Source: Thiovibrio frasassiensis
GTDB lineage: Bacteria > Desulfobacterota > Desulfobulbia > Desulfobulbales > Desulfurivibrionaceae
Length of the DNA: 64,000 nt
Assembly: GCF_029607905.1 (NCBI RefSeq)
Contig: NZ_JAPHEH010000001.1
Span: forward strand, 2,447,530-2,511,529
Reading direction: 5' to 3'
A program made the position numbers and the translations under genes. Below the pieces are notes generated by a model. The model worked only from the letters and a program-made list of their open reading frames with translations. It did not search any database and was not told the origin of the DNA. Numbering within the stretch: the first letter of the stretch is position 1; each line of letters opens with the position of its first letter. Positions 29,565 to 59,640 of this stretch are shown here, one piece after another.

Positions 29565-29746
29565 CCTCCTTGGACAACCTGCCTGCGTTGCCGATAAATT
29601 GAGGCTACAGGCAAACCATACCTCCCTGCCCCTGTCAACCGAAAGCCAATTATCCCTTTGGTTCCGCTGCTGTTTCTCTGCTACACTGAGTGCAGGCTAT
29701 GTGGACGCATCCGTGTCCCTGCCTGGAACAAACAGGAGAAACGCTG

Positions 29747-31786
29747 ATGGATGATGTGCTGACCACCTGTGTTTACTGCGGCTGCGGCTGCGGTCTTTAC
29801 CTGCACGTGGAGAAGGACAAGGTCTGCGGCAGCCAGCCCAGCCGGTACCACCCGGTCTCCCGGGGCAACCTCTGCGTCAAGGGCTGGCACATCCATGAAT
29901 CCGTCAACCATCCCGATCGGCTCACCACCCCGCTGATCCGTAAAAACAACGTACTCACCCCGGCCACCTGGGAAGAGGCCCTGGATTTTACCGCCCAGCA
30001 GCTCGGCCGGATCCGCGAGCAGCATACCGGCACCGCCATCGGCGTGCTGGCCTCGGCCAAGTGTACCAACGAGGAGAACTATCTGCTGCAAAAGTTCGCC
30101 CGCACCGCGCTTGGCACCAACAACGTGGACCACTGCGCCCGACTCTGACACGCCCCCACGGTGGCAGGTCTTGCCACCACCTTCGGCAGCGGGGCCATGA
30201 CCAACTCGATCAACGAGATCGAAAACGCCGAGGTGATCCTGGTTTCCGGCTCCAACACCACCGAGGCCCATCCCCAGGTGGCCCGACGGATGCTGGACGC
30301 GGTGGACCGGGGCGCCCGGCTGATTGTGATCGATCCGCGCCGCACCCGCTTGGCCGAGTGCGCCCATCTCCATCTGGCGCTAAAGCCCGGCACCGATATC
30401 CCGCTCATCAATGCGATGATGCGGGTTCTATTGGACGAGGGGCTGGCCGACGATCTCTTCATCGAGATGCGCACCGAAAACTTCCTCGCCCTGCGCGACA
30501 TGCTCCACCGCCTGGACCTTGAGGAAACCGCCGAACTCACCGGGGTGGAGCTGCCCCTGATCCGCCAGGCGGCCGAGCTCTACGGGAGAGCCCGCAAGGC
30601 GGTGATCTGCTACTGCCTGGGCATCACCCAGCATGTCTGCGGCACCGAAAACGTGCAGACCATCGCCAACCTGGCCATGCTCGCCGGACACATCGAAAAG
30701 GAAGACACCGGGGTCGACCCGCTCCGCGGCCAGAACAACGTCCAGGGCGCCTGCGACATGGGGGCGCTGCCCAACATGCTCCCCAGCTACCAGGGCGTAC
30801 ACCACGATGATTTCCGCGACAAGTTCGAACGCGCCTGGGGAGCAACCCTGCCGACAGACCCCGGCCTGACCCTGGTGGAAATGACCCACGGCGGGCCGCA
30901 GGGACCGATCCGGGGGATGTACATCATGGGCGAAAACCCCATGCTCAGCGACCCCACCCTGAACAAGGTGGAGGAAACCCTGCGGGGCTTGGATTTTCTG
31001 GCGGTGAGCGACATCTTCCTCACCGAAACGGCGCAGCTTGCCCACGTTGTTTTCCCGGCCGCCTGCTTTGCCGAAAAAAGCGGCACCTTCACCAACTCCG
31101 AACGCAGGGTGCAGATGGTGCGCCAGGCAACCGAGCCGCCGGGAGAATGCCGGGCTGACAGCGCGATCATCATGGCGCTTTCCACCCGCTTGGGCTATGC
31201 GATGGAATACGACTCCAGCGCTGAAGTGATGGAAGAGATCGCCCTGCTCTCCCCCATCTACGGCGGCATCTACCATGACCGTTTGGACCGGAGCTGGGGG
31301 TTGCAATGGCCCTGCTGGGACCGCGAACATCCGGGCACCCCTTTTCTGCACAAGTACTATTTTACCCGGGGTCGGGGTCATTTTATGCCCGCCAGCCACA
31401 CTGCGCCCAGCGAGCTGCCGGACCGGGAATATCCCCTCCTGCTGATGACCGGCCGGATCTACCACCAGTACCACACCGGCACCATGAGCCGTAAAAGCGA
31501 ACGGTTGAGCAGGGAGTGCGGCCAGGCCGAACTCCAGCTCAACCCGGCGGACGCCAAAACCCTCAGCCTGCGCCAGGGCGAAATGGTGCGGCTCATCTCC
31601 CGGCGGGGCGAGATAACCCTCAGGGTCTCCATCACCGAACAGGTGGCTGCCGGGATGGTCTACACCACCTTCCACTTTTCCGAGGCGCCCATCAATCGGC
31701 TCACCAACGACGCCTTTGACACCGGCTCCCGCTGCCCGGAGTACAAGGTCTGCGCGGTGCGGGTGGAAAAATCGCAGCTCCTGTAA
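29747..31786 (+). CDS. fdhA: Formate dehydrogenase catalytic subunit, selenocysteine-containing
   Basis: A molybdopterin (or tungstopterin) formate dehydrogenase of 679 aa when the in-frame TGA at 30146-30148 is read as selenocysteine (residue 134). The context DHCARL-U-HAPTVAGL matches the Sec site of FdhF-type enzymes, and the frame continues without break to 31786. The N-terminus has a 4Fe-4S motif CVYCGCGCG with NLCVKG; NNVQGACDMG and the C-terminal Molydop_binding region are also present. A SECIS-like hairpin lies just after the TGA. The start is set by AGGAGA before ATG 29747. It heads an operon with two HydB/HydG-like genes, so it probably passes formate electrons to NAD(P) or ferredoxin in the cytoplasm. 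Confidence 0.95.
30160..30178 (+). promoter_or_regulatory. SECIS hairpin of fdhA
   Basis: GGTGGCA (30160-30166) and TGCCACC (30172-30178) form a perfect 7-bp stem with a GGTCT loop, starting 11 nt after the TGA. The GGTCT loop and the distance match the E. coli fdhF SECIS that binds SelB. Confidence 0.9.
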
Positions 31787-40158: not shown

Positions 40159-43100
40159 TCAGTCCGGCAACTCGTCGCCCAACACTTCAACCTTTATGGC
40201 GCACAGCTTATACTCAGGCGTTCTGGAAAGACGATCCAGAGCGTCCAGGGTCAACATATTCACCAGCGCCTGCAAATGGTTATAGGTGCTGAAGACCGTG
40301 CCCTCCTGGGTCTTGTCGGTGATGATGGCCCGCATCTGCACTGAACCGCGCCGCGAGGTGAGCCGCACCCAATTCTTCTCTTTCAGGCCCAAACGTTGGG
40401 CATCGCCAGGATGGACCTCGGCAAAGCATTCCGGGCTGATCTCGTCGATCTCCGGGGTCTTGCCGGTCATGCTGCTGAAGTTATAGCGGGCAATATCGCG
40501 GCCGGTGGTAAAGAGCAGCGGATATTCCTCATCGGGCAGCTCCACCGGGGGGATGTAATCCTCGGGGATAAAAAGCCCCTTGCCGCGGGTAAACTTCTCC
40601 GTATGCAGCACCGCGGTGCCGGGATGATGCTGGTCCGGTACCGGCCACTGCAGGCCGACCTTTTCCAAGCGCTCGTAGGACAATCCCTTGTACTGGGGCA
40701 GCAACTGGCAGATCTCGTCAAAGATCTCCGAAGCGGAATTATAATGCATGGGATAGCCCATCCGCTGGGAAAGCAGGGAGATGATCTGCCAGTCCGGCTT
40801 GGCCTCGCCCGGCGGCTCAACCGCCTTGCGAATCCGCTGGACCCTGCGCTCGGTACAGGTGAAGGTGCCGTCCTTTTCCGCATAACAGGCAGCGGGCAAA
40901 ACCACATCCGCCATCTTCGCGGTATCGGTCAGGAAGAGATCCTGAACCACCAGAAAATCAACCTTTTCCAGGGCGGACTGGACATGGGCGATATTGGCGT
41001 CGGCCACGGCCGGGTCTTCCCCGAAGATATAGAGGCCGCGGATATCGCCCTTAAAGACATTTTCCCACACCTCGGTGGCCGGTTTTCCTGGGCGCCGTGG
41101 CAGCTTGATGCCCCAATGTTTTTCATACTTGGCAAAAAGATCGTCACCCTCAAGACCGCCATAGCCCGGCAGGGTATTGAACAGGGCGCCCATGTCGCAG
41201 GCGCCTTGGACATTGTTCTGACCGCGGAGCGGATTGCAGCCCATACCTTCCTTACCGATCTTGCCGCAGAGCATGGCCAGGTTGGCAATAGATTTCACCC
41301 GGTCCGTACCGGTAACATAGTGGGTGATACCCATCCCCCAGAAAGCAGCATGCCTGCCTTCCGCCGCATACATGCGGGCAACCTGACGCAACTGGGCTTC
41401 GTTGATGCCGGTGATTTTTTCCACCACCTCAGGCGTATATTTCTTGACCAAGCGGCTGAGTTCGTCAAAATCCTCGGTCCGCTCCTCGACAAACTTCTTA
41501 TCCCAGAGCCCTTCCTCGAGAATGACCTGCATCATCCCGTTTAAAAAGGCGACGTCGGTCCCCGGCACGATTCGCAGCCAGAGATCGGCCCGCTCGGCCA
41601 ATTTGGTACGCCGGGGATCAACCACCACCAATTTAGCACCGCGGTCAACGGCCTGGTGAATCCGCAGCCCGATGGTCGGATGGCTGGTGTCCGGGTTGCT
41701 GCCGACCATGAAGAAGAGATCTGTTTTCTTTGTATCCGCAATGGAGTTGGTCATTGCGCCGCTGCCGAATGTGAGGGCCAAACTGGCCACCGTGGGAGCG
41801 TGTCAGAGTCGGGCACAGTGATCGATATTATTCGTTCCGATCGCTGTCCGCATGAATTTTTGCATCAGATAATTTTCTTCGTTACTGGCCCGGGCGCAAC
41901 TGAAACCGGAAATGGAATCCGGTCCGTACATGGCCTTGAGGTCGAAGAAACGCTTCGCCACCACATTGAGGGCATCTTCCCAGCTGGTCTCCACCAACTG
42001 GGAGCCCCGACGCACCAGGGGTTGGGTCAGACGCTCCTTGTGCTGAACAAAATTATGGCCAAATCTCCCCTTGACGCAGAGGGCGCCATAATTCGGGGCC
42101 AGATCCGGATCCGCGGTGACCTCCATCAGGGTATTGCCCTTGACCTTGAGGATGATCTGACAGCCGGCGCCGCAGTAAGGGCAGGTGGAGCGCACCTCGC
42201 GGATGGCCTCATTGACCACCGGCACCAGGACGTCTTTCTTGTTCAGCGCTCCGGTGGAACAGTTGTCCACACAGGCTCCGCAGTTGACACAGTTTTCCTT
42301 GAATTTAAAGCGCAGCCCCTTGGGACGGCCCTTGTCATCGACATCATCGGCGCTGATTTCCAGGGCATTGTATTCACAGCTGTTCTCGCAGCGCTTGCAG
42401 TAGATGCACTTGTTCAGATCCACCAGAATCATGGGATGGTTGATCTTTTCCGTATAGGTCGGCTGTGCCGCCATCCCGGTCCGGCTGGGATCGAGGCCGA
42501 AATCCATGGCCAATTGCTTCAAATCACAACGGTCAAAGGCACGACAGCCGCAGGATAGACAACGCTTGGCCTCGGTGATCGCCATCTGTTCCGAAAAGCC
42601 GAGTTTGATCTCGCTGAAATCCTGGGTCGCGATCTGGGGCGGACGGGTGGGCATCTTCTCCCGCAGCTTGATGTTGATCCCCTCGAAGTTCCGCAGATCC
42701 ACATCATCAAACCCCTTCCCCCGGCTGAAGTTGAAACGGCTCTCAGCCACGGTCTTGGTGATGGACATGACCTGGGCATGGATATTATCCGCCGCCCGCC
42801 GGGCCGCAACCACGGCCTGGATCACCGAGCGGGGACCGCTGGTCACATCCCCGGCCGCATAGATGCCGGGATGATTGGTCAACGAGGTTCGCGGGTTGGC
42901 CTTCACATTACATTTCGGGGTCAATTCCAGAGTGGCTTCGAGCTCGCCGCCCTCGAACTTCTCGCTACAAGCACTCAAGCCTTGGGCAACAATGACCGTA
43001 TCCGCCTTGATGTTCACTGTGGAGCCGGGGATCGCCTCCGGATAACGGATACCCTTTTCATCGGGCTCGCCGAGCTTCGTCCGGATCAACTGGACGCTGA

Positions 43101-44274
43101 TGCCGTTGTCGGTATCGCTGAAATTCACCGGTGCGGCCATGAGGAGAAACTGCACGCCCTCTTTTTCCGCCACCCGGATGTTGCGCTGGTTGGCGGGCAT
43201 CTCGGTCTGGGCCCGGGGATAAATGATCGTTACCTGGCCGACTTCCTTACGCAGCAGGGAGCGGGCAACCTCCATGGCCACATTGTTGCCGCCGAAGACC
43301 ACGGCGGAACGGCCGTAATTGCCGCCCTTGCCTTCGGCCAAGTCGCGCAGGAATTTCGTGGCCGGGATAACCTTGGGCAGAGCACAGCCAGGCACATCAA
43401 GGCTTTCATCCACCGGGGTGCCGGTGGCAATGAGGATCGCCTCGTACCCTTGGTCCTTGAGGGATTGCAGGGTGAAATCCTCGCCCCATTTCTGGCTCAA
43501 GCGGACATTGATCCCCATGCGCAGGATGGTGCTGATTTCGTAATCAAGCACATCCTGGGGAATCTTGTAGTCGGGGATACCGTAGCGCAGCATGCCGCCA
43601 AGCTTGGAGGCTGACTCGAACACCGTGACATCATGGCCTTTGCGCGCCAAATAGTACGCGCCGGTCAGACCGGAAGGCCCGCCGCCGATAACGGCGATCT
43701 TTTTGCCGGTGGAGGCATCACGGGGAATACGCAGGTCAATCTTGTGCGCCATGCACCAATCGGCGACAAAACGCTTCAGATGGTTGATGGAGACCGGCTC
43801 ATCCACCAAAATACGGCGGCAGCGGGTCTCACAAAAACGGGGACAGACCCGACCTACGGAAAAGGGAAAAGGATTGCGCTCCATGACCAGGCGCAGAGCC
43901 TCTTCATACTGGCCTTTGGCCACATGGGCGATGTACCCCTGGACATTGATCTGCCCTGGACAGGTGAGATTGCAGGGCGCCTTGCAGTCACCGAAATGGG
44001 TCTCCATCAGGAGGGTCATGCGCTCGGCGCGCTTGGCCTGGAGCTCCTTGGATTCGGTGGTGATCTGCATCCCTTCGCCAATCGGGGTTATACAGGAACG
44101 CACCGGCGCATCGATCCCATCCACGCTGACCACGCAGAGTTCGCACGGAATATCCGAGGTCCCCTTGTTCACGTAGCACAGGGTCGGGATATGGATATCC
44201 GCCCGCTTTGCCGCTTCGAGGATGGTGATCCCTTCTTCGGCAACAATTTCATGACCGTTGATTGTGATATTCAT
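40159..44274 (-). CDS. Large fused formate dehydrogenase, selenocysteine-containing
   Basis: Reading TGA 41803-41805 as selenocysteine (residue 824, context DHCARL-U-HAPTVASL) gives one 1371-aa protein. Order of domains: an N-terminal NuoG-like 2Fe-2S part (CELCVV, RSCITP), a GltD-type 4Fe-4S region (CKAPCNLTCPG, CPRFCETRC), an FAD/NAD(P) oxidoreductase (VIGGGPSGLTGAYYLA and VFGGNNVAMEVARS), two ferredoxin motifs (CIYCKRCENSC, CVNCGACVDNC), then the FdhF-type molybdopterin subunit from CPYCGAGCQ. Formate oxidation or CO2 reduction and the NAD(P)-type flavin site are thus on one chain. It lies between acsC and hdrA in the Wood-Ljungdahl cluster, which makes it the likely CO2-to-formate entry enzyme, working with HdrA/MvhD. 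Confidence 0.93.
41776..41788 (-). promoter_or_regulatory. SECIS-like hairpin of the fused formate dehydrogenase
   Basis: On the minus strand GGCC-AGTTT-GGCC forms a short strong stem beginning 14 nt after the TGA, with possible further pairing of GTG and CAC across a bulge. It aligns in position with the clearer SECIS of fdhA. Confidence 0.62.
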
Positions 44275-44347: not shown

Positions 44348-45703
44348 TTATGCCGCGGGCTTCCATTCCTTCAGGAAGGCAGGCAGATGTCCGGCTTCAC
44401 GGGGACCGATGGTAATAGTCCAACCGGCCAGTTCTTCTTCAAGTTCACCCTTCATGGAGGCGAGGTAACCGGGAATAATCAACTCCCGATGCTTGACCTT
44501 GGACTCGATCCCGGATTTTTTCATAAACGCCGCGATCATATCCGCGCCGAACTTGCCGGCAGCCCAAGCGGTGAGAACCGAAAGACCTTCCGTGTCCTTG
44601 ATCAACAACCAGGAAGGCACCTTGCTCCCTTCGATCTCGCCGGAAACGATGAAGTAGGTGAGCGAGAAGTTACAGGTAATGAGTACCGGCGAATCCTCGG
44701 TCGGGCCATTGATGTTATAAACATCTTCCTGAACCACCATGGGGCGTTGCGGATCGGTGAAGATATTCAACCGCTCCAGCAAGAGCGGGAAGAGAATATC
44801 GCCCTGCAGGTCGGAAAGGACGACAATGCCTGCGTATTTGGCAATCAGCACCGAGGCGACCATGGCCTCCATCAGCGGATCGGCGGAGATCTCGCAGGGA
44901 AAGGTGATGGTCGGAAAGCCCAGGGGCTTGAATTTGGCCCGAATGGCGGAACGCCGACCAACCACACTGTCTTCCAGGGCGGCACGGACCGTGCGGGCAC
45001 CGGAATCGAGCATCAAATCCTTGAGGCCCGCGGCAATAAGTTTTTCAGAAATCGCCACGGTGTCGTCAAGGTTTGTTCCCTTGGCAACCAGAGGGCAGCC
45101 GGTCTCCTTGGCAAGAGCAGCCATGGCCTCGGCATTCTCTGCGGTGGCACCATAGAGCAAAGGCTTGCGCTCACCGCAGACACCAGCGGCAGCCTTGAGG
45201 TTGTCTGCCTTGTCGCTCATCAAAATAATGCCTGCATCGGCTGCGCCGTCCAATACCTTCTTGGTCAGCGCGGTGAAGGCAGCACTGTCGCCCTTGGTGT
45301 CTTTGATCGCGATCAGGTCGGCCTTGAGGAGCACCCCAACCCGCTCGTAACGAAGATTCTTGAACCGAGTGATACGACCATCGACATCGGCTTCGTTCAT
45401 CTCGGTGGTGACCAGCACCGCAATACCGGTGGGATTCTCAAAACGTTTCTCATGGCGAAACAGACAGGTCTCGCCGCCGGTGGTATAGGCACTGTCCCCG
45501 GAGCCGAGTTTAATAGTCCGGATCGGAGGAGCAGAGGCCTCGCCGATCTGCTCCTTGACCTCCTCACTCACATACGGACATTCGCCGATCTCCGTCTGTC
45601 CGGCTGCCACCTTCATGGCAAAGGCAAGACAGGTAGGAATACCGCACTCCCCACAGTTCTTCTTGGGAAGCATTTTGAGGATTTGAATACCTGTTAAAGC
45701 CAT
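44348..45703 (-). CDS. acsC: Corrinoid iron-sulfur protein large subunit (AcsC/CdhE)
   Basis: The gamma subunit of the corrinoid iron-sulfur protein carries the methyl group from methyl-THF to acetyl-CoA synthase. The 451-aa protein starts with the 4Fe-4S domain CGECGIPTCLAFAMKVAAGQ followed by GECPYV. A TIM-barrel B12-binding region and a C-terminal domain (KKSGIESKVKHRELIIPG) follow. It is of ordinary length. GGGAGGA precedes the ATG. It lies between acsB and the formate dehydrogenase gene; the 121-bp gap to acsB contains AGGTTAAA/TTTAACCT that could pair across a long loop. Confidence 0.95.
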   Translation of the reverse strand: MALTGIQILKMLPKKNCGECGIPTCLAFAMKVAAGQTEIGECPYVSEEVKEQIGEASAPPIRTIKLGSGDSAYTTGGETCLFRHEKRFENPTGIAVLVTTEMNEADVDGRITRFKNLRYERVGVLLKADLIAIKDTKGDSAAFTALTKKVLDGAADAGIILMSDKADNLKAAAGVCGERKPLLYGATAENAEAMAALAKETGCPLVAKGTNLDDTVAISEKLIAAGLKDLMLDSGARTVRAALEDSVVGRRSAIRAKFKPLGFPTITFPCEISADPLMEAMVASVLIAKYAGIVVLSDLQGDILFPLLLERLNIFTDPQRPMVVQEDVYNINGPTEDSPVLITCNFSLTYFIVSGEIEGSKVPSWLLIKDTEGLSVLTAWAAGKFGADMIAAFMKKSGIESKVKHRELIIPGYLASMKGELEEELAGWTITIGPREAGHLPAFLKEWKPAA

Positions 45704-45824: not shown

Positions 45825-48029
45825 TTAAACAAGCGCTTCCATTTCAAGGGCCGGGTGACCGACCTTTTTCATGAAGGCGAGGATTTCCTCTTCCGTGGTA
45901 CCGTTCTCCTCGGTGGCGATCATATCGTAAAACTCCGGCCTGCCGATTTCCTTGCAGCGCTCCATGAGTTTGTCCTTGATCTCCTCTTTCATCATCTTGG
46001 GCAGCCAAACCATCCGGGTGAGCCCGCCTTCGGCGACAAAGAGCTTGGGGCTGGTCATGAAATGCTTGGAAACCCCGATAAAACCAGGAGTCTGCGCCCC
46101 ACCGCCGGCCATGCCGGCCAAGGAGGTGAACTTCATCCCGGAAGGGGTCATGCCGCTGTAGTCGCGGTTGACCACCATGATCCCGTTGCACTGGGGGAGC
46201 ATGGCGGCAATGGCCTCAAAACAGCCGCAAGCGGTCATCGGGCTGTTCATCAGGGAATACAAGGCAAGATCGGTCACGGCCCCGCGGGAGGTCTGATCGA
46301 CAAAATCGTTGATCCCCTTGAAACGGCCGAGCTTTTCATCCAGACAGTCGCCTTTCTGAATCGGCTGGTTGGGGCCGGTGGGGTTGATCTGGAAGGAGGC
46401 CTTGCCATCCAGCCAGTTATAGGCGCCGCACATCCCGATCCGCTCCGGGGTGATAACACAGACATGACTCGGAGCAAAGGACTGGCACAGGGTGCAGGAA
46501 TAGAAGACCTCTTCGGTCTCGTCGGTCATGGAGCCCAAACGCTCATCGCGCTCTGCGTACACCTTGCGGGCAAGCTCCTGCACCTCTTCCACCTTGTCCA
46601 ACTCGGTGTAGAGCTTGACCTGGATCTTGTCGACAATGGCGCCGAATTCCTGATGGAGTTTGCCGTGCAGCACCTTGCCGATATGGGTGAAGGAAAAGCC
46701 CTTTTCCACCGCAGCCTTGCCAATCCGGAGCCACATGATGTTCCGCTGGCCCATGTGCATGATGCCCTGGATATAGTTGATCAGGTGATGGAACTGACGC
46801 TCGAGGATGGGCTCGAAATCCGACTGCATGCCACGTCCGGCAACCTCAACCAGGATGCCGAGGGGCACGTTTTGGCCCACCTGAAGATCCTTGATGTCCG
46901 GCCCTTCGATGGTGACCTTGCCGTCCTCAACCTCGGACATATCCTTGGAAACGAGCACCTCAACCCCAGAAGTCCGGCCGCCGCCGCATTCCATGAAGAG
47001 ATCGTCCTTACGGATACGCTCGCCCTCAAAGGCAGGGCCAAAGGACAGGGGAATATCGATCTTGGTGACGTTGACCTTGAGGCCGCGCACCTCGATGGCC
47101 TTCTGCACGATCTCGTCGTGAGGCACCCGGCTGACCACGTGCTCGTAGGTACAGATCCCGGTGGGCAGGATCTCGGGGATGTCGTAGTCGGAGATGGTGG
47201 GGAAACCCCAGTTGATGGCGCCGGCCGCGTTGGCGTACCACTCGTCGGATACCGGACCAAAGGCCATAATAAAAGCGAAGGTCCGATCTTTGTTGTAAAT
47301 CAGATTGCCCTTGTAATCGCCGGGCTTGATGCCGCCGAAGGCCATGGCCACCCGGCAGGCAAAACCGATGGCGAAGACCGCGGAGGTGTAACTCTTGCCA
47401 AAGGGAACCAGACGGGTATTCCAGCCGACCTGGACCTTATTTTCCACCAGACGCTCGGCCATGTTCTTGCCGTTGGTCTGGTCGTGCATGAAGATATAAA
47501 GGTTTTTCTCCTGCAGCTCAAGGGCGATGCGCGAAGCAACCGCATTGTCATCCGGGGTGCCCATGATGGCGGCAAAGCCGGGGGCCGTGCCGTCAACGAA
47601 CTCAACGCCGCGTTTGCGGAAGATAACGTCGTCGGCGGCACCCAGCCAGATATTGTTCTCCAGCGGGTCCTCGGTTTTCGTATAGAAATCCGGGGTCTCA
47701 AGATACCGGATGGCCTCGTACATCTCTTCGGCAAAAAAGGTGGCCATGCCGGCATCGAGAGCCGGGGCGAGGTACGGCAGCCAGATATTCTCACTCACCT
47801 GCGCCGGCAGCAGGGTGCGGCATTCCTGAAAGATATCCTTCATATCGCCAAGCTTCTCCACCTTGGCACCCAGCATACTGTAAATAATCGGCAGGAAGTA
47901 AGCGGTGTTGGGGTAAGAAACCTCATGTTCGGGGCCGTATTTCTTGATGGCTTCCTCGAACTTCGCTTCCGCCATATCAACTATTTTGTGAGCCCCACGG
48001 ATGGCGGCCGAACAGATGATCTTAGACAT
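45825..48029 (-). CDS. acsB: Acetyl-CoA synthase (AcsB/CdhC)
   Basis: AcsB joins CO, a methyl group and CoA at the nickel-containing A cluster. The 734-aa length is that of bacterial AcsB (about 730). Cluster ligands are visible in YSCTLCQSFAPSHVC and GMCGAYNW, and the Cys-Gly-Cys pair that binds the distal nickel is present in PMTACGCFEAIA. TGICTYEHVVSR and the N-terminal CODH-contact region are intact. GAGGAG about 10 nt upstream supports the start. It is transcribed between the metF-acsD fusion and acsC. Confidence 0.96.
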   Translation of the reverse strand: MSKIICSAAIRGAHKIVDMAEAKFEEAIKKYGPEHEVSYPNTAYFLPIIYSMLGAKVEKLGDMKDIFQECRTLLPAQVSENIWLPYLAPALDAGMATFFAEEMYEAIRYLETPDFYTKTEDPLENNIWLGAADDVIFRKRGVEFVDGTAPGFAAIMGTPDDNAVASRIALELQEKNLYIFMHDQTNGKNMAERLVENKVQVGWNTRLVPFGKSYTSAVFAIGFACRVAMAFGGIKPGDYKGNLIYNKDRTFAFIMAFGPVSDEWYANAAGAINWGFPTISDYDIPEILPTGICTYEHVVSRVPHDEIVQKAIEVRGLKVNVTKIDIPLSFGPAFEGERIRKDDLFMECGGGRTSGVEVLVSKDMSEVEDGKVTIEGPDIKDLQVGQNVPLGILVEVAGRGMQSDFEPILERQFHHLINYIQGIMHMGQRNIMWLRIGKAAVEKGFSFTHIGKVLHGKLHQEFGAIVDKIQVKLYTELDKVEEVQELARKVYAERDERLGSMTDETEEVFYSCTLCQSFAPSHVCVITPERIGMCGAYNWLDGKASFQINPTGPNQPIQKGDCLDEKLGRFKGINDFVDQTSRGAVTDLALYSLMNSPMTACGCFEAIAAMLPQCNGIMVVNRDYSGMTPSGMKFTSLAGMAGGGAQTPGFIGVSKHFMTSPKLFVAEGGLTRMVWLPKMMKEEIKDKLMERCKEIGRPEFYDMIATEENGTTEEEILAFMKKVGHPALEMEALV

Positions 48030-48100: not shown

Positions 48101-50752
48101 TTAATCCATGAGCCCGCTGATCAGCGACTTGGTCAAAGAAACAGCCCTCGGATGCCGCATGATCATCAACTCGCCACCCGCCATCAACATGCAGGAAGCG
48201 GTAATGGCCTCCATGAGGATACCGCGGGTTTCCTGATCACCAATCATCTCGTCGGACGGCAACCGGCATTCCTTGGCCTTCCAAACCTCGCGGCCCAGGT
48301 TGCAGATAAAGGGCACCTGAAGCTTCTCGTCTTTCTGGGTCAGGGCGGCAAGACGGATCCGCTCCATAACCGAGTAGGTATATTCGATCCCGTAGCCAAG
48401 AGCGCCGATGGAGGGATCGATCAAAACGGACTCCAGGGAGACCCCGAGATTCTCAAGGAGAATATTGAGCTGCTTGGCCAGGTTGACGTCGATGGGCGAC
48501 GCTGCAACCATGGGATACTGGAAGGCCATGGCGGTGGCGCCGATGGCCCGGTAGTTGCTGTCGGAGAGCGGCGCCAGACACACCTTCTTGTCGCCGATCA
48601 GGGAGGTGATCTCCCGCAGGGTCTCGGTATCCTTTTCCCCGTTGCCGCAGCCCCAGACAATCACCGGTACTTCGATATTTTTCACCACCTCGGCCGCTGC
48701 TTTCGCAGCCTCGCCGGAAGGCCGGTTCAAGCCGTTGGGGTCGGTGCTGACCATGGAGATACAGATAGCTTCGGCGCCGTATTCCTTGACACATTTCTGA
48801 GCCCAGGCCACGGGATTGTCCATGACGTCCTGATAATGGCGGGCCAGAGAATCGGGCCACTCGTCGGGTTTGACATCGAGGATATCAAAGGCGATCATGG
48901 GCTTGTTGGGCATCGCCCCTTCAAAGAGATGGAACGGCAGGGTGCTTTCGCCGCCCACCTTGATGCCGCTCGCCGCATCGCCCAATACGGTCTGGCGGAT
49001 GGCGCCGGTGTATGCCTGTTTGTAAGAGGCCTCGGGCACCTTGGCTGCCCGTTCAGACAACGGGGCCTTCTCCAGGGCAAGTGCAGCCGCGCCAACGGCC
49101 GCAGAGACCGGAGCGGCAGCGGCCGGCGCTTTCTTTTCTGCGGGGGCGGCCGGTTTCTTCGTCGCTTCCGCAGCCTTGGCCTCGGCGGCTTTCTTAGATG
49201 CCTCAATCTTCTTGGCCTCTTCAGCGGCTGCCGCCTCAGCTGCCTTCTTTGCAACTTCGGCCTGCTTGGCCTCTTCCGCAGCCTTAGACTCAGCAGCTTT
49301 CTTCGCGGCCTCACCCTTTTTGGCATCTTCGAGCGCCGCAGCCTCGGCAGCTTTCTTGGCTGCGCCCTCATCCGTAACCGGAGCAGGAGCAACCGGGGCA
49401 ACCGACGCTGCCGCCGGAGCAGCAGGAGCAGCAGGAGCAGCGAGTACCGGCTCGCGCTTGAGAATAGCCTCAGCGCCGGCGAATTTCGTCAGTGCATCAA
49501 ATTGATCGTCCGACAAGCCATAGGCCTTTTTCAGCGCATCAAGACCGAGGCGTACCGACTCCAGCGCCATTTGCCGTTCTTTTTCGTTCATCGCATCCTC
49601 TCCTGCTTGATCTATTTCAATCCTTGCCTGATCAACCGCCCCAGCGCCGCTGACGCTGCTGGCCGATGCCCGGAACTGAGCAGCTTCCGCCTGAGCCGCG
49701 GCAACAATCTTTTCTGCCTCAGCCTTGGCTGCCGCCAGGACAACATCACTTTCCTTCTCTGCGGCCACCGCGGACCGAACCTCGATGGGTGCCTCCGGTC
49801 TTGCCGCCGCCAAAGCGACAGGCTCGTCGGCAAACACCGGCCGGGTAGCAAGTCCTGCCCGGCTGACGATCTCCGGCACAGCGCTCTCCCATTCGATGGC
49901 CATGATATGTACGCCGGCCACCCCTTCTATCTCCCGAACCTGCCGGATGATATCAACGCAGATGTTGATACCCTCGTCTTCCTTGTCCTTGGCCCCTTGC
50001 ATCCGCTTGATCACCTCATCGGTGACATCCATGCCGGGGACGGAACTCTTCATGTAACGCGCCATGCCCACGGATTTCGGTGGGGTTACCCCTGCGAGGA
50101 TATGCACCTTTTTGTGGAGACCGAGATCACGGACCGCCTGCATGAATTTGGCAAAGCGCTCAACATTGTAAATGATCTGGGTCTGGACAAAATCAGCGCC
50201 ATTGGCGACCTTTTTTGCCAACCGGGCAGCCCGGAACTGTTCCGATGGTCCGGCAAAGGGGTTTGCCGCGGCACCGAGAAAAAGCTTGGGCTCATGGGAC
50301 TTGATCAGTTCGCCACATTGAAATTTCTTCTCATCCCGCATGGTCTTCACCATACCGAGCAACTGGATGGAATCCATATCAAAGACGCCCTTGGAACCGG
50401 GATGATTGCCGAACTTCTGATGATCGCCGGTAAGACAGAGGAGATTCTTGAGCCCCAGAGCGGCAGCCCCGAGAATATCACTCTGCATCCCGATCCGGTT
50501 CCGGTCGCGGCAGGTCATCTGAATGACCGGCTCCACCCCCTCGGCCAAGGTCAACAAGCCAGCACTGATACTGGACATGCGGACGATGGCGGTCTGACAG
50601 TCGGTGATATTGACGGCGTCAACACTGCCTTTGAGCAGACGGGCCTTTTCCCGAACATGTTCGGCGTTACCGTTCTTGGGTGGTCCCAACTCACCGGTAA
50701 CTGCGAACTCTCCTGATGTTAAAATCCGTTCTAAACGGCTTCCCGATTTCAT
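48101..50752 (-). CDS. MetF-AcsD fusion: methylene-THF reductase plus corrinoid protein small subunit
   Basis: One uninterrupted frame of 883 aa. Residues 1-300 are MetF-like: AVTGELGPPKNGNAEH, MTCRDRNRIGMQSD, NLLCLTGDH, ADFVQTQIIYNVERF and HILAGVTPPKS. Residues 300-600 are low-complexity Ala/Glu/Lys with long stretches of helical AAKKAAE type. From about residue 640 the protein is AcsD/CdhD, the delta subunit of the corrinoid iron-sulfur protein (MIAFDILDVKPDEWPD, ICISMVSTDPN, DPSIGALGYGIEYTYS). The fusion would hold the enzyme that makes methyl-THF next to the corrinoid protein. Within the frame, AGGAGAGG lies 5 nt before an ATG (49591), so a separate 496-aa AcsD may also be made. Confidence 0.92.
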   Translation of the reverse strand: MKSGSRLERILTSGEFAVTGELGPPKNGNAEHVREKARLLKGSVDAVNITDCQTAIVRMSSISAGLLTLAEGVEPVIQMTCRDRNRIGMQSDILGAAALGLKNLLCLTGDHQKFGNHPGSKGVFDMDSIQLLGMVKTMRDEKKFQCGELIKSHEPKLFLGAAANPFAGPSEQFRAARLAKKVANGADFVQTQIIYNVERFAKFMQAVRDLGLHKKVHILAGVTPPKSVGMARYMKSSVPGMDVTDEVIKRMQGAKDKEDEGINICVDIIRQVREIEGVAGVHIMAIEWESAVPEIVSRAGLATRPVFADEPVALAAARPEAPIEVRSAVAAEKESDVVLAAAKAEAEKIVAAAQAEAAQFRASASSVSGAGAVDQARIEIDQAGEDAMNEKERQMALESVRLGLDALKKAYGLSDDQFDALTKFAGAEAILKREPVLAAPAAPAAPAAASVAPVAPAPVTDEGAAKKAAEAAALEDAKKGEAAKKAAESKAAEEAKQAEVAKKAAEAAAAEEAKKIEASKKAAEAKAAEATKKPAAPAEKKAPAAAAPVSAAVGAAALALEKAPLSERAAKVPEASYKQAYTGAIRQTVLGDAASGIKVGGESTLPFHLFEGAMPNKPMIAFDILDVKPDEWPDSLARHYQDVMDNPVAWAQKCVKEYGAEAICISMVSTDPNGLNRPSGEAAKAAAEVVKNIEVPVIVWGCGNGEKDTETLREITSLIGDKKVCLAPLSDSNYRAIGATAMAFQYPMVAASPIDVNLAKQLNILLENLGVSLESVLIDPSIGALGYGIEYTYSVMERIRLAALTQKDEKLQVPFICNLGREVWKAKECRLPSDEMIGDQETRGILMEAITASCMLMAGGELMIMRHPRAVSLTKSLISGLMD
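49589..49604 (-). promoter_or_regulatory. Internal ribosome site and start for a separate AcsD
   Basis: On the minus strand AGGAGAGG (49604-49597), a 5-nt spacer and ATG (49591-49589) lie in frame inside the metF-acsD ORF, before MNEKERQMALES. Translation from here would give a 496-aa AcsD with its Ala/Lys-rich N-terminal extension. The site is stronger than that of the metF start at 50752. Confidence 0.65.
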
Positions 50753-50811: not shown

Positions 50812-52806
50812 TCAAGAAGCGGTCGGGCCATGACAGCCAACGTCCTTCAACGGACCGCCACCAAGGTCACGACGCATGTCCATATCGAAAAGAACACGCT
50901 CTTTCTTCTTGTTGATGCCTAGGGCGTCGCGCTTTGCCTCGATCTTCTCGATCATGATCCTGGCGATTTCCAAGGGCTCCGAAGCGATATTCCAGTGGGC
51001 ACCCACCTCGCCCATCAAGCCTTCGGTGAGGTATTTATTGAAATTCTTGGCCCCGGAGATGGGCAGATTCTGGAAAACAACCTGGGCCCCGCTGGCCACG
51101 AAATACTGACCAATGGCCACGGCCTTTTCGCTCATCCAGAGAGGAGCGGTACCGATGGCGGGCAGGTCGGAGATATCGTCGCCCAAGCCCCCTTGCCGGA
51201 CCATTTCGGTGGCTGCGATAAGGATCCGGGAGTTGTCAACGCAAGAACCCATATGGAGAACCGGCGGCATGCCCACGGTCTCACACACCTCCCGCAGGGA
51301 GTCGCCGCAGAAACGGGCCGCCTCGGGATTCAGCAGGCCGGCCTTGCCCAGTGAGGTTGCGGCGCAACCCGTGGCCAGGACGAGGATATTGTTTTTCAAC
51401 AACTCCCGGACAATGGTTTCATGGGTGTCGTCCGCAAGCTTGAAATTGTCACAACCGACAATGGCTGCCACCCCGCGGATGCGGCCATTGATGATATTGT
51501 CGTTCAGCGGCCGGTAACTGGCGCGGAAACGGCCGCCCAACATGGTGTTGATGGTTTCATGGCTGAAACCCACAACCACGTCCATCTTAGTTTCCTTGGG
51601 AATAAAACACTTGCCGCGCTTCTTGAAATTTTTGATGGCATGGGTCAGGATCTGCTTGGCGGAATTGAGCGCCTCGTGTTCCTCAAACTGGATATGGATA
51701 CCGCCGGGCATCTTGGCCCGATAGTTGGTGGTAATGATGTCGGTGTGGAAATTCTTTGCCACCTCGGCCACGGACTGCATGACGCACTGCACATCAACCA
51801 CCATCGCCTCCACCGCCCCGGTGGCCAGGACGATCTCCTGCTGGACAAAACCACCGGCCACCGGAATCCCGCGGCGCATGAGGATCTCGTTACCGGTGCA
51901 GCAGACGCCGGCAAGGTTGATCCCCTTGGCGCCCTGCTTCTTGGCCAGCTCCAGCATTTCCGGATCCTGGGCCGCGATGCACAAGGCCTCCGCCAGCAAA
52001 GGCTCATGCCCGTGCACGGTGATATTAACCTGATCGAGTTTCAGTACGCCAAGATCAACAATGGCGCGACGGGGCACCGGAGTGCCGAACATGATGTCGG
52101 TCAACTCGGTGGAAAGCATGGAAGCGCCCCAGCCGTCGGACAAGGCGGTGCGGGAGGCCTGGAGCATGAGGTTATGGTATTCCTGGTCAACACCCATGTG
52201 GGTACGGTGCATCATCTCCACCACCTCACGGTCGATGCCGCGGGGGGCGATGCCCAATTTCTGCCAGAGGGCCTGCCGTTTCGGCGTAGCCCGTTTCAGC
52301 ATGGAAAGCGGCGCATCATCCTGCTTGCCGAATTCGGCCAGGGCTTTTTCCCCGAGCTCAAGGGCGATATCCTTCACCTCACGCTCTTCGGTGACGATAC
52401 CAAAGTCCGCAGCCAGCTTTTTCAGCTTATCCACATCCTTGATCTGATGCAGCCCTTCCCCTTTGGCAGCCTCAATGAAACCTTTGACCATCTCCCGGGC
52501 ATGGTCGGTGTGCGCGGCAGACCCGGCAGCCACGGTACGGGCGAAATTCCTGGCCGCCACGGTGTCGGCGGTGGCGCCACAGATACCGAGCATGTCATCA
52601 ACGCCGTCGATGATCTGACAAGGCCCCATATTGCAGTTGCGGCAGCAGGTCCCGCTGGAGCCGAAAAGACAGGCCGACATCCCCCGCGCTTTTACCCGGT
52701 CATAGGCAGTCTTGACGTTCTTGGCCACATCCTGAGAGAGAACCTGTTGCGTGGAAACGCAGGTAATATCCGTGCATCCCTCACATCCATTTCGTTTGAT
52801 CGCCAT
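50812..52806 (-). CDS. cooS: Nickel carbon monoxide dehydrogenase (CooS/AcsA)
   Basis: This enzyme reduces CO2 to CO, or oxidises CO, at a Ni-Fe-S C cluster. The 664-aa protein has N-terminal cluster cysteines (GSSGTCCRNCNMGPCQI) and GICGATADTVAARN. It also has VNITVHGHEPLLAEAL, AGVCCTGNEIL, VVDVQCVMQSV, VATGCAATSLGKAG and MGSCVDNSR, the last holding C-cluster ligands. The length is that of AcsA paired with AcsB. No CooC nickel-loading ATPase gene is seen in the window. It lies between folD and metF-acsD, with GAGGA ahead of the ATG. Confidence 0.96.
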   Translation of the reverse strand: MAIKRNGCEGCTDITCVSTQQVLSQDVAKNVKTAYDRVKARGMSACLFGSSGTCCRNCNMGPCQIIDGVDDMLGICGATADTVAARNFARTVAAGSAAHTDHAREMVKGFIEAAKGEGLHQIKDVDKLKKLAADFGIVTEEREVKDIALELGEKALAEFGKQDDAPLSMLKRATPKRQALWQKLGIAPRGIDREVVEMMHRTHMGVDQEYHNLMLQASRTALSDGWGASMLSTELTDIMFGTPVPRRAIVDLGVLKLDQVNITVHGHEPLLAEALCIAAQDPEMLELAKKQGAKGINLAGVCCTGNEILMRRGIPVAGGFVQQEIVLATGAVEAMVVDVQCVMQSVAEVAKNFHTDIITTNYRAKMPGGIHIQFEEHEALNSAKQILTHAIKNFKKRGKCFIPKETKMDVVVGFSHETINTMLGGRFRASYRPLNDNIINGRIRGVAAIVGCDNFKLADDTHETIVRELLKNNILVLATGCAATSLGKAGLLNPEAARFCGDSLREVCETVGMPPVLHMGSCVDNSRILIAATEMVRQGGLGDDISDLPAIGTAPLWMSEKAVAIGQYFVASGAQVVFQNLPISGAKNFNKYLTEGLMGEVGAHWNIASEPLEIARIMIEKIEAKRDALGINKKKERVLFDMDMRRDLGGGPLKDVGCHGPTAS

Positions 52807-52995: not shown

Positions 52996-53883
52996 TTATT
53001 TCACGCCTGCGATCTGCTTGGCCGCCTGTACGGTATTTTTCATGAGCATGGTGATGGTCATGGGGCCGACTCCACCCGGAACAGGGGTAATATACGAAGC
53101 TTTTTCCTTTACCGCATCAAAATCCACATCACCGGCGAGAATGGCCTTGCCTTCCGCGGTCTTGCCGATCCGGTTCACACCGACATCGATGACCACCACC
53201 CCGTCTTTCACCATATCGGCGGTTACCATTTTCGGCACACCGACAGCGGCGATGATGATATCGGCCCGCTTACAATGGGCGGCCATATCCTTGGTGCGGG
53301 TATGGCACAGGGTGATCGTAGCGTTGCCGCCTTTTCTTTTCTGGAGCATGAGATTGGCGATGGGCTTACCGACGATGTTGCTGCGGCCGATGATCACCAC
53401 CTCGGCGCCGCTGGTCTCCACGCCACTGCGGGTAAGCAACTCGAGGATACCGTGGGGCGTGCAAGGCAGGAAACACTCCTCGCCCAAGACCATCTTGCCC
53501 ACGTTCACCGGATGAAAACCATCCACGTCCTTGTCCGGATCAATGGCATAGAGGATATTGGTCTCATTGATATGCTTGGGCAGAGGCAACTGCACGAGAA
53601 TGCCGTGGATATTCTTGTCTTTGTTGTATTTCTCCACCGTGGCCAGCAGATCCTGTTCCGTGGTGTCGGCGGCAAGGGTTACCTGCTCGGAATGGATGCC
53701 GAGGGCATGGGCGGTCTTATTTTTTGCGCTCACATACGATTGAGAGGCCGGATCTTCTCCCACCAGAATCGTGACAAGACCGGGAACAATATCATGCTTT
53801 TCCTTAAGCTCCGTGACCTCGGTCTTTAACTCTTCACGAATAGCCTTTGCAACTTCCGTCCCGCTGATAATCTTGGCACTCAT
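52996..53883 (-). CDS. folD: Bifunctional methylene-THF dehydrogenase/methenyl-THF cyclohydrolase
   Basis: FolD carries out the two middle steps of the methyl branch, between formyl-THF and methylene-THF. The 295-aa protein has SYVSAKNKTAHALGI (catalytic Tyr and Lys), LPLPKHINE, PCTPHGILELL, the NADP-site GRSNIVGKP and DVGVNRIG. Length and motifs are normal. It is the first gene of the long cluster that runs to mvhD; AAGGAG sits about 7 nt before the ATG. As no fchA was seen, FolD presumably does both reactions. Confidence 0.96.
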   Translation of the reverse strand: MSAKIISGTEVAKAIREELKTEVTELKEKHDIVPGLVTILVGEDPASQSYVSAKNKTAHALGIHSEQVTLAADTTEQDLLATVEKYNKDKNIHGILVQLPLPKHINETNILYAIDPDKDVDGFHPVNVGKMVLGEECFLPCTPHGILELLTRSGVETSGAEVVIIGRSNIVGKPIANLMLQKRKGGNATITLCHTRTKDMAAHCKRADIIIAAVGVPKMVTADMVKDGVVVIDVGVNRIGKTAEGKAILAGDVDFDAVKEKASYITPVPGGVGPMTITMLMKNTVQAAKQIAGVK

Positions 53884-56818: not shown

Positions 56819-58582
56819 TTAGAACAGCCCTGAAACCTTACCTGATTCCGTGTCGACATCAATACGGCGGAAGGCCGGATTCGAACTGGTGCCGGGCATC
56901 AGGCTGATTGATCCCGCACACGGGCAGAGGAACTTGGCGCCGGAATAGATCAAGATGTCCCGAACCGGCAAACGCCAGCCCTTGGGCACACCCTTGAGGG
57001 TCGGATCATGACTCAGGCTCAGGTGGCTCTTGACCATCATGGTGGCATAATCGGCATACTGGGGATCTTTTTCCAGCATCTCAGCCTTGGCATTAGCCTC
57101 TGGTGACCAATCGACACCGTCACCGCCATACACTTCCTTGGTGATCATCTCAACCCGGTCGCGCAGTTTCATCTCCAGAGGATAGAGGAACTTGAAATCA
57201 TTCTCTTCGTTACAGGCATCGATAACCGTATCGGCGAATTCCAGCGCTCCGTCGCCGCCCAGTTCCCAATGCTTGGACTCGGCGCAACGGGCACCGGCAG
57301 CCTCGGCGATCCGACGAACAACCCTGCACTCTTCGTCGGTGTCGGAATAGAAGCGGTTGATGCAGACCACCGGGTTGATGCCGGCCTTGCGGATAACATT
57401 GATCAGATGAACCATGTTCTCGCAACCCTTCTCCACCAGCCCGACGTTCTCCTTGGTATAGGCGTCATCAAGGGGCTTGCCCGGAACGACCTTGGGTCCG
57501 CCGCCATGCATCTTCAGGGCGCGGATCGTGGCGGTAAGAACCGAAACATGCGGCTTGAGACCGGAGTAGCGGCATTTCACGTTCCAGAATTTCTCGAAAC
57601 CGATGTCGGCGGCAAAGCCGGACTCGGTGATGTTGTAATCAAAAAGTTTCAGGGCAACCCGGTCGGCGATGATGGAAGACTGGCCGACGGCGATGTTGGC
57701 GAAAGGTCCGGCATGGACCAGGCAGGGGTTGTACTCGGCGGTGCACATCAGGGTCGGGTTGATGGTGTTGCGCATGAAAGCGGCCATGGCGTTGCCCACT
57801 TCCAGGTCGCGGCAGGTGACCGGCTTACCGCTCTTGTCAAAGGCCACGGTGATATTGTTGATCCGTTCCTTCAGGTCAGCCAGATCGGTGGCAATGGACA
57901 GGATGGCCATGAGCTCGGAGCCCACGGCAATGCCGAATTTGGACTGCATGGTGTAGCCGTCCGTACGGCCACCGAGGCCGATGACGATGTTGCGCAGGGC
58001 CTGGGCGCAGAAGTCGATGATCCAGCCGAACTCCACCCGGGTGGGGTCGATGTCGAGCCGCCGCATGCCGGTCAATCTGGCCAGCTGCTCGTCGTTGTAG
58101 TTGCGCTCATGCTGCATGCGGGCGGTCATGGCCACCATGCCCAGGTTGTGGGCGTTCATGATGTCGTTGATGTCCCCGGTGAGCCCGAGAGAGAACTCGG
58201 TCATCGGGATCAGGAGGGAGTTGCCACCGCCTGCCGCGGTTCCCTTGACGTTCATGGTCGGGCCGCCGGAAGGCTGGCGCAGGGCGCCGCCGACATTCAT
58301 GCCGCGCTTGCCCAGACCTTCCATCAGGCCGCAGGAAGTAGTACTTTTCCCCTCGCCCAGAGGCGTCGGGGTAATCGCCGTTACCTCGATGTACTTGCCG
58401 TCCGGCTTGTTTTTGAGGCGATTCATGATTTTAAGGAAATCGAGCTTGGCCAACCTGCCCATGGGAAGAATTTCGTCTTTCTCAAGCCCTAATTTGTCTC
58501 TCCACTCCTCAGGGGTGGGCATGTTCTTTTCGGCAGCCTCGGAAATCTGCCAATCCGCCATATTCACCGCATCAAAAGCCAT
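56819..58582 (-). CDS. fhs: Formate-tetrahydrofolate ligase
   Basis: Fhs makes formyl-THF from formate, ATP and THF, the second step of the methyl branch. The 587-aa product has the P-loop [41 protein letters not shown] and [15 protein letters not shown]. It is about 25-30 residues longer than the classic acetogen enzyme, mostly in the N-terminal part ([12 protein letters not shown]). An earlier in-frame start at 58819 is possible, but AAGGAGAGAG just before ATG 58582 is decisive. It follows thyX on the minus strand and ends at a strong terminator. Confidence 0.96.
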
Positions 58583-58683
58583 CTCTCTCTCCTTCTTAAA
58601 ATAAGTTGTTCTCGATTTCTCTGTAGCAACAAAAACATGGGGCGTCAGGCTCTCGCCCGCCCCCCGGATTTTCCTAGCATTTT

Positions 58684-59640
58684 CTATTCCGCAGCAAAGG
58701 TAACATCCGCGAAAACCGCCGGATATCGCCCCTGAAAGGCCTTGGCCAGCGGGATCATCACCTCGCGCATGGAAGGCTCGGCATTCTTGGGGGTGCGTAG
58801 CCGGAAGATATGCAGCCACTCCAGCAGATTGGCAAAGACAATGATCTCGGTCTTGCAGGAGTTGGGCAATACCGTCCGCGCGGCTTGGGGCGACGAGGTG
58901 CCAAGGAGCTTGAGGTAAATCTTCTCCGTCTCCAGCATCGCCTTTTCCCAGAGCTTATATTCGCTGCTTCCCTCGGCAAAAAACATAGGTTTGATAAAGG
59001 TTATCTCGTTGCCGAACTTGTCATCGGCATACCGGCAATAGCGCTGGCTTTCCTGCAAAAAAGAACAGGGGCGGTGGCGAACCAGTTCATGGGTCACCGC
59101 CCGATTGGTTATAAAACGCACCGCAACATAACGGTGTTTTGCCAGCAGATCCGCGGACAGAGCCTCCACCTCGGCCAGCGGCAGCCGGGTGACGACAACC
59201 CCGTCCTGGGGAAGCCAGCCGCGTTTCGGCGCCAGGTCCGAAAAGAAGAGCGGATACAGTTCGGCAAGGTGCCCGGCTATCCCCTTGATCACCTTGACCT
59301 TGCCGTAATCCCGGGCCAGTTCCCGGAACGCCCGGATCGTCCCGGTGATGAGCAGTACTTTCTTCTCAAGCCGGTCAAACTGGACGTATTTAGGGATCAC
59401 GCTCAAAAACTGGGTAGCAAGCGATTCACTGTCAATCTCAACCCGCAGGGTCAAAGCCGCCATCTCCATGACCGAATTATGGCCATGCTTGACAATCCCC
59501 TGTATAAACGGCTCAGCCGAGGCCTCGGTGATCTTGTCCTCGGATTTGTAGCACAAACGCCCGCAGGCCTCGATGCGCACAGCCAAGCTCTGGTGGTCCA
59601 GTTCCTCAAGTATCTGAAACGAAGCCGGTATAACTTTCAT
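58684..59640 (-). CDS. thyX: Flavin-dependent thymidylate synthase
   Basis: ThyX makes dTMP from dUMP using methylene-THF and reduced flavin, so it draws on the same folate pool as the Wood-Ljungdahl genes next to it. The 318-aa protein has the hallmark [11 protein letters not shown] (RHRX7S) followed by QRYCRY, and [12 protein letters not shown] near residue 50. It is somewhat longer than typical ThyX (220-250 aa), with an extra C-terminal portion rich in [20 protein letters not shown] precedes the ATG. Confidence 0.95.

Follow-up and report, generated by a model that had tools for sequence, protein, structure and literature searches.

A conserved metF-acsD fusion gene with a putative internal start codon in Thiovibrio frasassiensis and related Desulfobacterota

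The metF-acsD gene and its neighbourhood

The window analysed here, a stretch of 64,000 nucleotides from Thiovibrio frasassiensis to which all unprefixed coordinates refer, contains a cluster of Wood-Ljungdahl pathway genes. In this pathway, MetF produces methyl-THF, AcsE transfers its methyl to the AcsCD cobalt and AcsB joins this methyl to CO. Within the cluster, methylenetetrahydrofolate reductase (MTHFR, MetF) and AcsD, the small subunit of the corrinoid iron-sulfur protein (CFeSP), are encoded by a single gene. The genes and domains concerned are as follows:

56819 to 58819, minus strand: fhs, formate-THF ligase (NF010032)
52996 to 53883, minus strand: folD (PF02882/PF00763)
50812 to 52806, minus strand: cooS, CO dehydrogenase catalytic subunit, next gene upstream of the fusion, order conserved (TIGR01702)
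48101 to 50752, minus strand: metF-acsD fused gene, 883 codons plus stop (open frame, Pfam)
49853 to 50752, minus strand: MTHFR (MetF) domain, residues 1-300 (PF02219 at 6-300; match to MTHFR structures)
48104 to 49024, minus strand: AcsD (CFeSP small subunit) domain, residues 577-883 (PF03599, NF003376, fold search)
45825 to 48029, minus strand: acsB, acetyl-CoA synthase, next gene downstream of the fusion, order conserved (NF040764)
44348 to 45703, minus strand: acsC, CFeSP large subunit and partner of AcsD (NF003195, 597.9 bits)

The family match of fhs begins at residue 80, so that its true start lies further in. The gene order folD, cooS, metF-acsD, acsB, acsC, formate dehydrogenase is conserved among the loci with the fusion, which recurs across Desulfobulbales and related lineages. 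The formate dehydrogenase gene (40162-44274, minus strand) contains an in-frame TGA at codon 824, within the motif DHCARLUHAP, which probably encodes selenocysteine; its product is fused at the N-terminus to ferredoxin-like and glutamate-synthase-small-subunit-like domains. A second formate-dehydrogenase-like frame (29690-31786, plus strand) also bears an in-frame TGA in DHCARLUHAP.

The single 883-codon frame of the original prediction proved real: it runs open from ATG to stop (50752 to 48101) and Pfam recognizes both of its halves. MTHFR was detected at residues 6-300 (E 3e-37), with a full-length match to PF02219 (128.9 bits for a cut-off of 24, profile positions 1-287 of 287), and CdhD at residues 589-828 (E 2e-42; PF03599, 145.9 bits). 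NCBIfam models widened the AcsD domain to residues 577-883, which passes the cut-off of NF003376 (367.9 bits for 280) and falls under those of NF003377 and NF040759. A predicted model of the whole protein matches the CFeSP small subunits 2ycl, 2h9a and 4djd as well as the MTHFRs 8eac and 1zp3; Foldseek aligned the MTHFR fold to chain B of 8eac (TM 0.81 by target length), and the AcsD domain is 40% identical to chain B of 2ycl in the fold search. With a pLDDT of 68.6 and a pTM of 0.46, the AlphaFold model has medium confidence, and it was read for folds and helices rather than for the relative position of the domains. Glu21 and Asp110 of the MTHFR domain are invariant in 46 sequences and, judging by motif likeness, may be equivalent to Glu28 and Asp120 of the Escherichia coli enzyme.

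The fused gene is the sole AcsD gene found in its genome. It does not encode the sole MTHFR of the cell, as a second MTHFR with a DUF5981 domain was found at C1:594.7 kb. Replacement of a missing AcsE by the fusion was likewise ruled out, since an AcsE-like methyltransferase gene (297 aa, pterin-binding) lies elsewhere in the genome. At L117:6755-8461 and L117:11240-12907 (plus strand) lie a second MTHFR fused to DUF5981 (MetV-like) and, close to it, genes for ferredoxin-like, MvhD-like and stand-alone DUF5981 proteins, possibly another MTHFR system. MTHFR genes that stand alone, with products sharing 56-59% identity with the fused domain, were found at L124:264-1163 and L125:3647-4540 (both minus strand): one adjoins the fusion in genome G042, and one is in G031, whose AcsD fragment is on another contig.

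Conservation of the fusion and of the region between the domains

The comparison took in 80 related loci from named genomes, 72 of which extend far enough upstream to show the junction. MTHFR and AcsD share one open frame in 67 of these 72 loci. The other five are frameshifted, and at no common point: three breaks fall within MTHFR, one in a conserved segment covering residues 384-432 and one between this segment and AcsD. A hidden stop codon or frameshift at the junction, and more generally a sequencing or assembly error, is thereby ruled out as the source of the fusion. The fusion occurs, among others, in Desulfobulbus, Desulfocapsa and Desulfurivibrio as well as in the cable bacteria Electronema and Electrothrix, the copy of Electrothrix aarhusensis being one of the five frameshifted loci.

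AcsD was detected in 164 of 247 genomes of the phylum Desulfobacterota, 23 of which have an AcsD frame long enough for a fusion with MTHFR. The remaining ones encode AcsD alone, often with a C-terminal Ala/Lys-rich tail. No AcsD match was found in family f11 of the Desulfobulbales (genomes G036, G046, G055, G164 and G212), where the pathway consequently seems to have been lost. Phylogenetic analysis gathered the fused AcsD proteins (40 in the tree, including one split row) into one branch (support 100/99), which extends beyond the Desulfobulbales. This topology fits one old fusion that would predate the order. A former gene boundary had been proposed to have become a read-through that kept the second start; conservation of that start at the nucleotide level, detailed below, agrees with the latter part of this proposal, but the fusion is neither local nor recent and defines one old clade.

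The region between the two domains comprises about 276 residues (301-576) and divides into three parts:

49613 to 49852, minus strand: linker 1, residues 301-380, specific to the fusion product; helix predicted at 332-365
49457 to 49603, minus strand: conserved segment, residues 384-432; predicted helix-turn-helix with helices at 390-411 and 415-425
49025 to 49456, minus strand: linker 2, residues 433-576, Ala/Pro-rich, then an Ala/Lys/Glu helix at 472-526 in the model

The original prediction described some 300 residues of low-complexity and probably helical linker. Four helices are predicted in this region, which is somewhat shorter and not of low complexity throughout, as segment 384-432 is conserved nearly to the level of the enzyme domains. 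This segment begins around an internal ATG at codon 388 and is retained in fusions devoid of this ATG, which argues for a role of its own, perhaps as a docking or oligomerisation piece.

Residues 301-380 belong to the fusion product only. Their dN/dS ratios in three groups of close relatives (0.28, 0.17 and 0.34) exceed those of the enzyme domains and are well under 1, indicating that the stretch is translated and constrained, with the caveat that, in a linker of low complexity, composition may contribute to a mean ratio under 1. Additionally, 42 different linker lengths were observed among relatives and all of these variants keep the frame. These observations bear on the possibility that AcsD works in its free form, the read-through fusion being either incidental or cut by proteases into two proteins. 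Such a reading would accord with the separate AcsD and MTHFR genes of most of the phylum and of the four split genomes described below. Yet the frame remains open in nearly all loci despite the many linker lengths, the fusion-only stretch is constrained, and lineages having only the fusion depend on it unless it is cut, all of which make this reading highly improbable. The predicted fusion product thus gains comparative support from the constraint on residues 301-380.

The internal Shine-Dalgarno and ATG388

Inside the fused gene, three further features define a putative second translation start:

49597 to 49604, minus strand: internal Shine-Dalgarno AGGAGAGG, 5 nt before ATG388; GGAG in 60 of 60 sequences
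49589 to 49591, minus strand: internal start codon ATG388 (MNEKERQ...), ATG in 60 of 60 Desulfobulbales sequences
48101 to 49591, minus strand: predicted second product, free AcsD of 496 aa with a helical segment at its N-terminus, deduced from the internal start; the acsD genes of loci L194-L197 begin at the matching place

As originally noted, AGGAGAGG lies exactly 5 nt 5' of the in-frame ATG388. In 60 Desulfobulbales sequences the consensus of the site reads [AG]GGAGA..., followed by ATG AAY GAR. The 3' end of the 16S rRNA of the same genome, GGCTGGATCACCTCCTT, terminates in CCTCCTT. With an energy of -7.4 to -8.0 kcal/mol, hybridisation at the site is favourable yet does not stand out from that at other in-frame ATGs, for which reason pairing strength alone was dropped as evidence and the case for an internal start rests on conservation. 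Since the site had been fixed beforehand by a first reading of the sequence, the conservation figures at ATG388 are not inflated by a search for sites. Just 5' of codon 388, an out-of-frame ATG opens a three-codon ORF (49589-49596, minus strand) whose TGA overlaps the internal ATG; it occurs in most, not all, relatives.

Conservation of the site was assessed by exchanging the six codons before ATG388 for synonyms according to the codon usage of each gene. GGAG precedes ATG388 in all 60 sequences, versus a mean of 14.6 and a maximum of 23 in 400 such recodings, and it is found in front of only 5.3% of the other in-frame ATGs of the same genes. The codon of Gly384 is GGA in 60 of 60 sequences, while GGA accounts for 16% of the Gly codons in these genes; the runner-up among Gly columns is 65% uniform. 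On the tree, its third base underwent no change, compared with 18.5 +/- 5.4 changes for 143 fourfold columns and at least 12 third-base changes for every other Gly column. Synonymous divergence, followed in nine-codon windows in three groups of close relatives, is lower around codons 379-389, taken as window centres, than anywhere else in the gene. It drops to 0.011 at codon 384 for a median of 0.495, the next dip (0.117) being the start of the gene itself. The codons at the internal site are the most synonymously conserved of the gene, beyond its own start. The mRNA around ATG388 is also open, with a mean MFE of -3.3 versus -10.2 kcal/mol (96th percentile of the gene). By these comparisons, the internal Shine-Dalgarno is under selection at the nucleotide level and conserved beyond coding needs, which lends comparative support to the predicted retention of a second start.

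The same data speak to the view that the fusion alone is functional and that the Shine-Dalgarno and ATG are relics of a former boundary between genes or simply follow from conserved amino acids. Gly384, Glu385 and Met388 are indeed conserved as residues, and other lineages have the fusion without an internal start. A relic would nevertheless decay, whereas synonymous positions are frozen at the internal site only, and the Shine-Dalgarno is lost from about three quarters of the sequences upon synonymous recoding. We therefore regard this explanation as very unlikely.

Beyond the Desulfobulbales, the internal start was looked for in f39, a second family of the phylum with small genomes. Among its 24 fused loci, 12 carry a GGAG-type Shine-Dalgarno, mostly GGAGG 7 nt before the ATG, and an in-frame ATG where the helical segment starts; none was found in the 12 others. 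In four further f39 genomes (L194-L197) the genes are split, a stop codon following MTHFR and acsD having a ribosome site and start ATG of its own at the corresponding position. These four form one clade (100/100) nested among the fusions, beside those with the internal site. Split genes as the ancestral state within f39 are consequently unsupported, and the nested pairs are later fissions. The simplest reading is that a new stop codon caused the fission and that acsD has since begun at what was once the internal start. In one f72 genome, GGAGG and ATG occupy this position too; most of the order of f72, along with family f75, has the fusion without an internal start. The presence of such lineages indicates that free AcsD is not always needed. 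Internal-site labels require about four changes on the tree.

Finally, an internal Shine-Dalgarno could serve as a ribosome pause between the domains, aiding folding without any free AcsD being made. The site does sit between two folded domains, and Shine-Dalgarno-like motifs at such positions have been proposed to slow ribosomes. Pausing, however, needs neither an ATG at start distance nor the Asn and Glu codons that follow it, both present in 60 of 60 sequences, nor an open mRNA; moreover, in the split genes the site has to serve as a start. We consider pausing unlikely as the explanation of the site.

Proposed products and known systems

The reading that we favour, and hold to be likely from these sequence comparisons, is that one gene yields both a MetF-AcsD fusion and free AcsD, a fraction of CFeSP being tethered to the reductase and the rest mobile. 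Translation from the first ATG would give the 883-residue fusion, while the internal Shine-Dalgarno and ATG388 would give a free AcsD of 496 residues with the small conserved helical segment at its N-terminus. Fused and free AcsD alike would combine with AcsC into the corrinoid iron-sulfur protein. The long helical linker would tie part of this protein to the reductase, methyl-THF being passed on via AcsE, and the mobile pool of free AcsD would shuttle to acetyl-CoA synthase. Comparative evidence suggests that both products are probably made; that tethering helps methyl transfer is our guess from the order of the pathway. More broadly, the ratio of fused to free AcsD may tune the tethering of CFeSP to MTHFR across a broad class of Desulfobacterota, with moves among fusion plus start, fusion only and split genes, a proposal that we judge somewhat better than even.

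The enzymes of the Wood-Ljungdahl pathway are often treated as separate entities that reach one another by diffusion at the methyl branch. That MTHFR and the corrinoid protein share a conserved tether, in cable bacteria, Desulfocapsa and Desulfurivibrio too, suggests that methyl delivery is organised across a large group of anaerobes. These carriers are sulfur-cycling bacteria in which one gene appears to provide tethered and free AcsD. Since fusions with the internal start, fusions lacking it and split genes all occur in nature, the value of the tether is open to comparative testing. Annotation of the longest frame only would overlook free AcsD.

In agreement with the original prediction, a search of mainly open-access literature turned up no account of the metF-acsD fusion or of its internal start. 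Compared with the separate MetF and AcsD proteins of the bacterial pathway (CFeSP 4djd, 2h9a and 2ycl; MTHFR 8eac and 1zp3), the fusion has the same folds and family scores and likewise lies in a cooS-acsB-acsC-folD cluster with fhs nearby. It differs in being one polypeptide with a conserved helical segment, an Ala/Lys-rich linker and an internal start. AcsD is also linked to another pathway enzyme in two other families of the phylum, where a one-frame AcsD-CooS fusion with an Ala/Pro/Lys-rich linker was detected (L156:5315-8683, plus strand; L157, minus-strand frame of 1150 aa). The partner there is CO dehydrogenase, on the C-terminal side, and this fusion is, as read from its sequence, a second kind of AcsD tether.

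Among proteins produced in two lengths, CcmM35 of beta-carboxysomes arises by internal initiation. The long form, CcmM58, has an extra N-terminal enzyme-like domain, the short form corresponds to the C-terminal scaffold part, and both are essential (PMC11973430). The likeness to metF-acsD lies in the long and short isoforms; there is no sequence relation, and CcmM is a Rubisco scaffold whereas both halves of metF-acsD are pathway enzymes. Similarly, in CRISPR types I-B, I-C and I-D the C-terminal part of Cas8 is also made alone, as Cas11, from an internal ribosome site (PMC13199841). These proteins are again unrelated, and Cas11, the short product, acts as a structural subunit attached to the long product. 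The component families of the fusion are thus known, and the nearest precedents for their arrangement would be, by analogy, CcmM58/CcmM35 and Cas8/Cas11.
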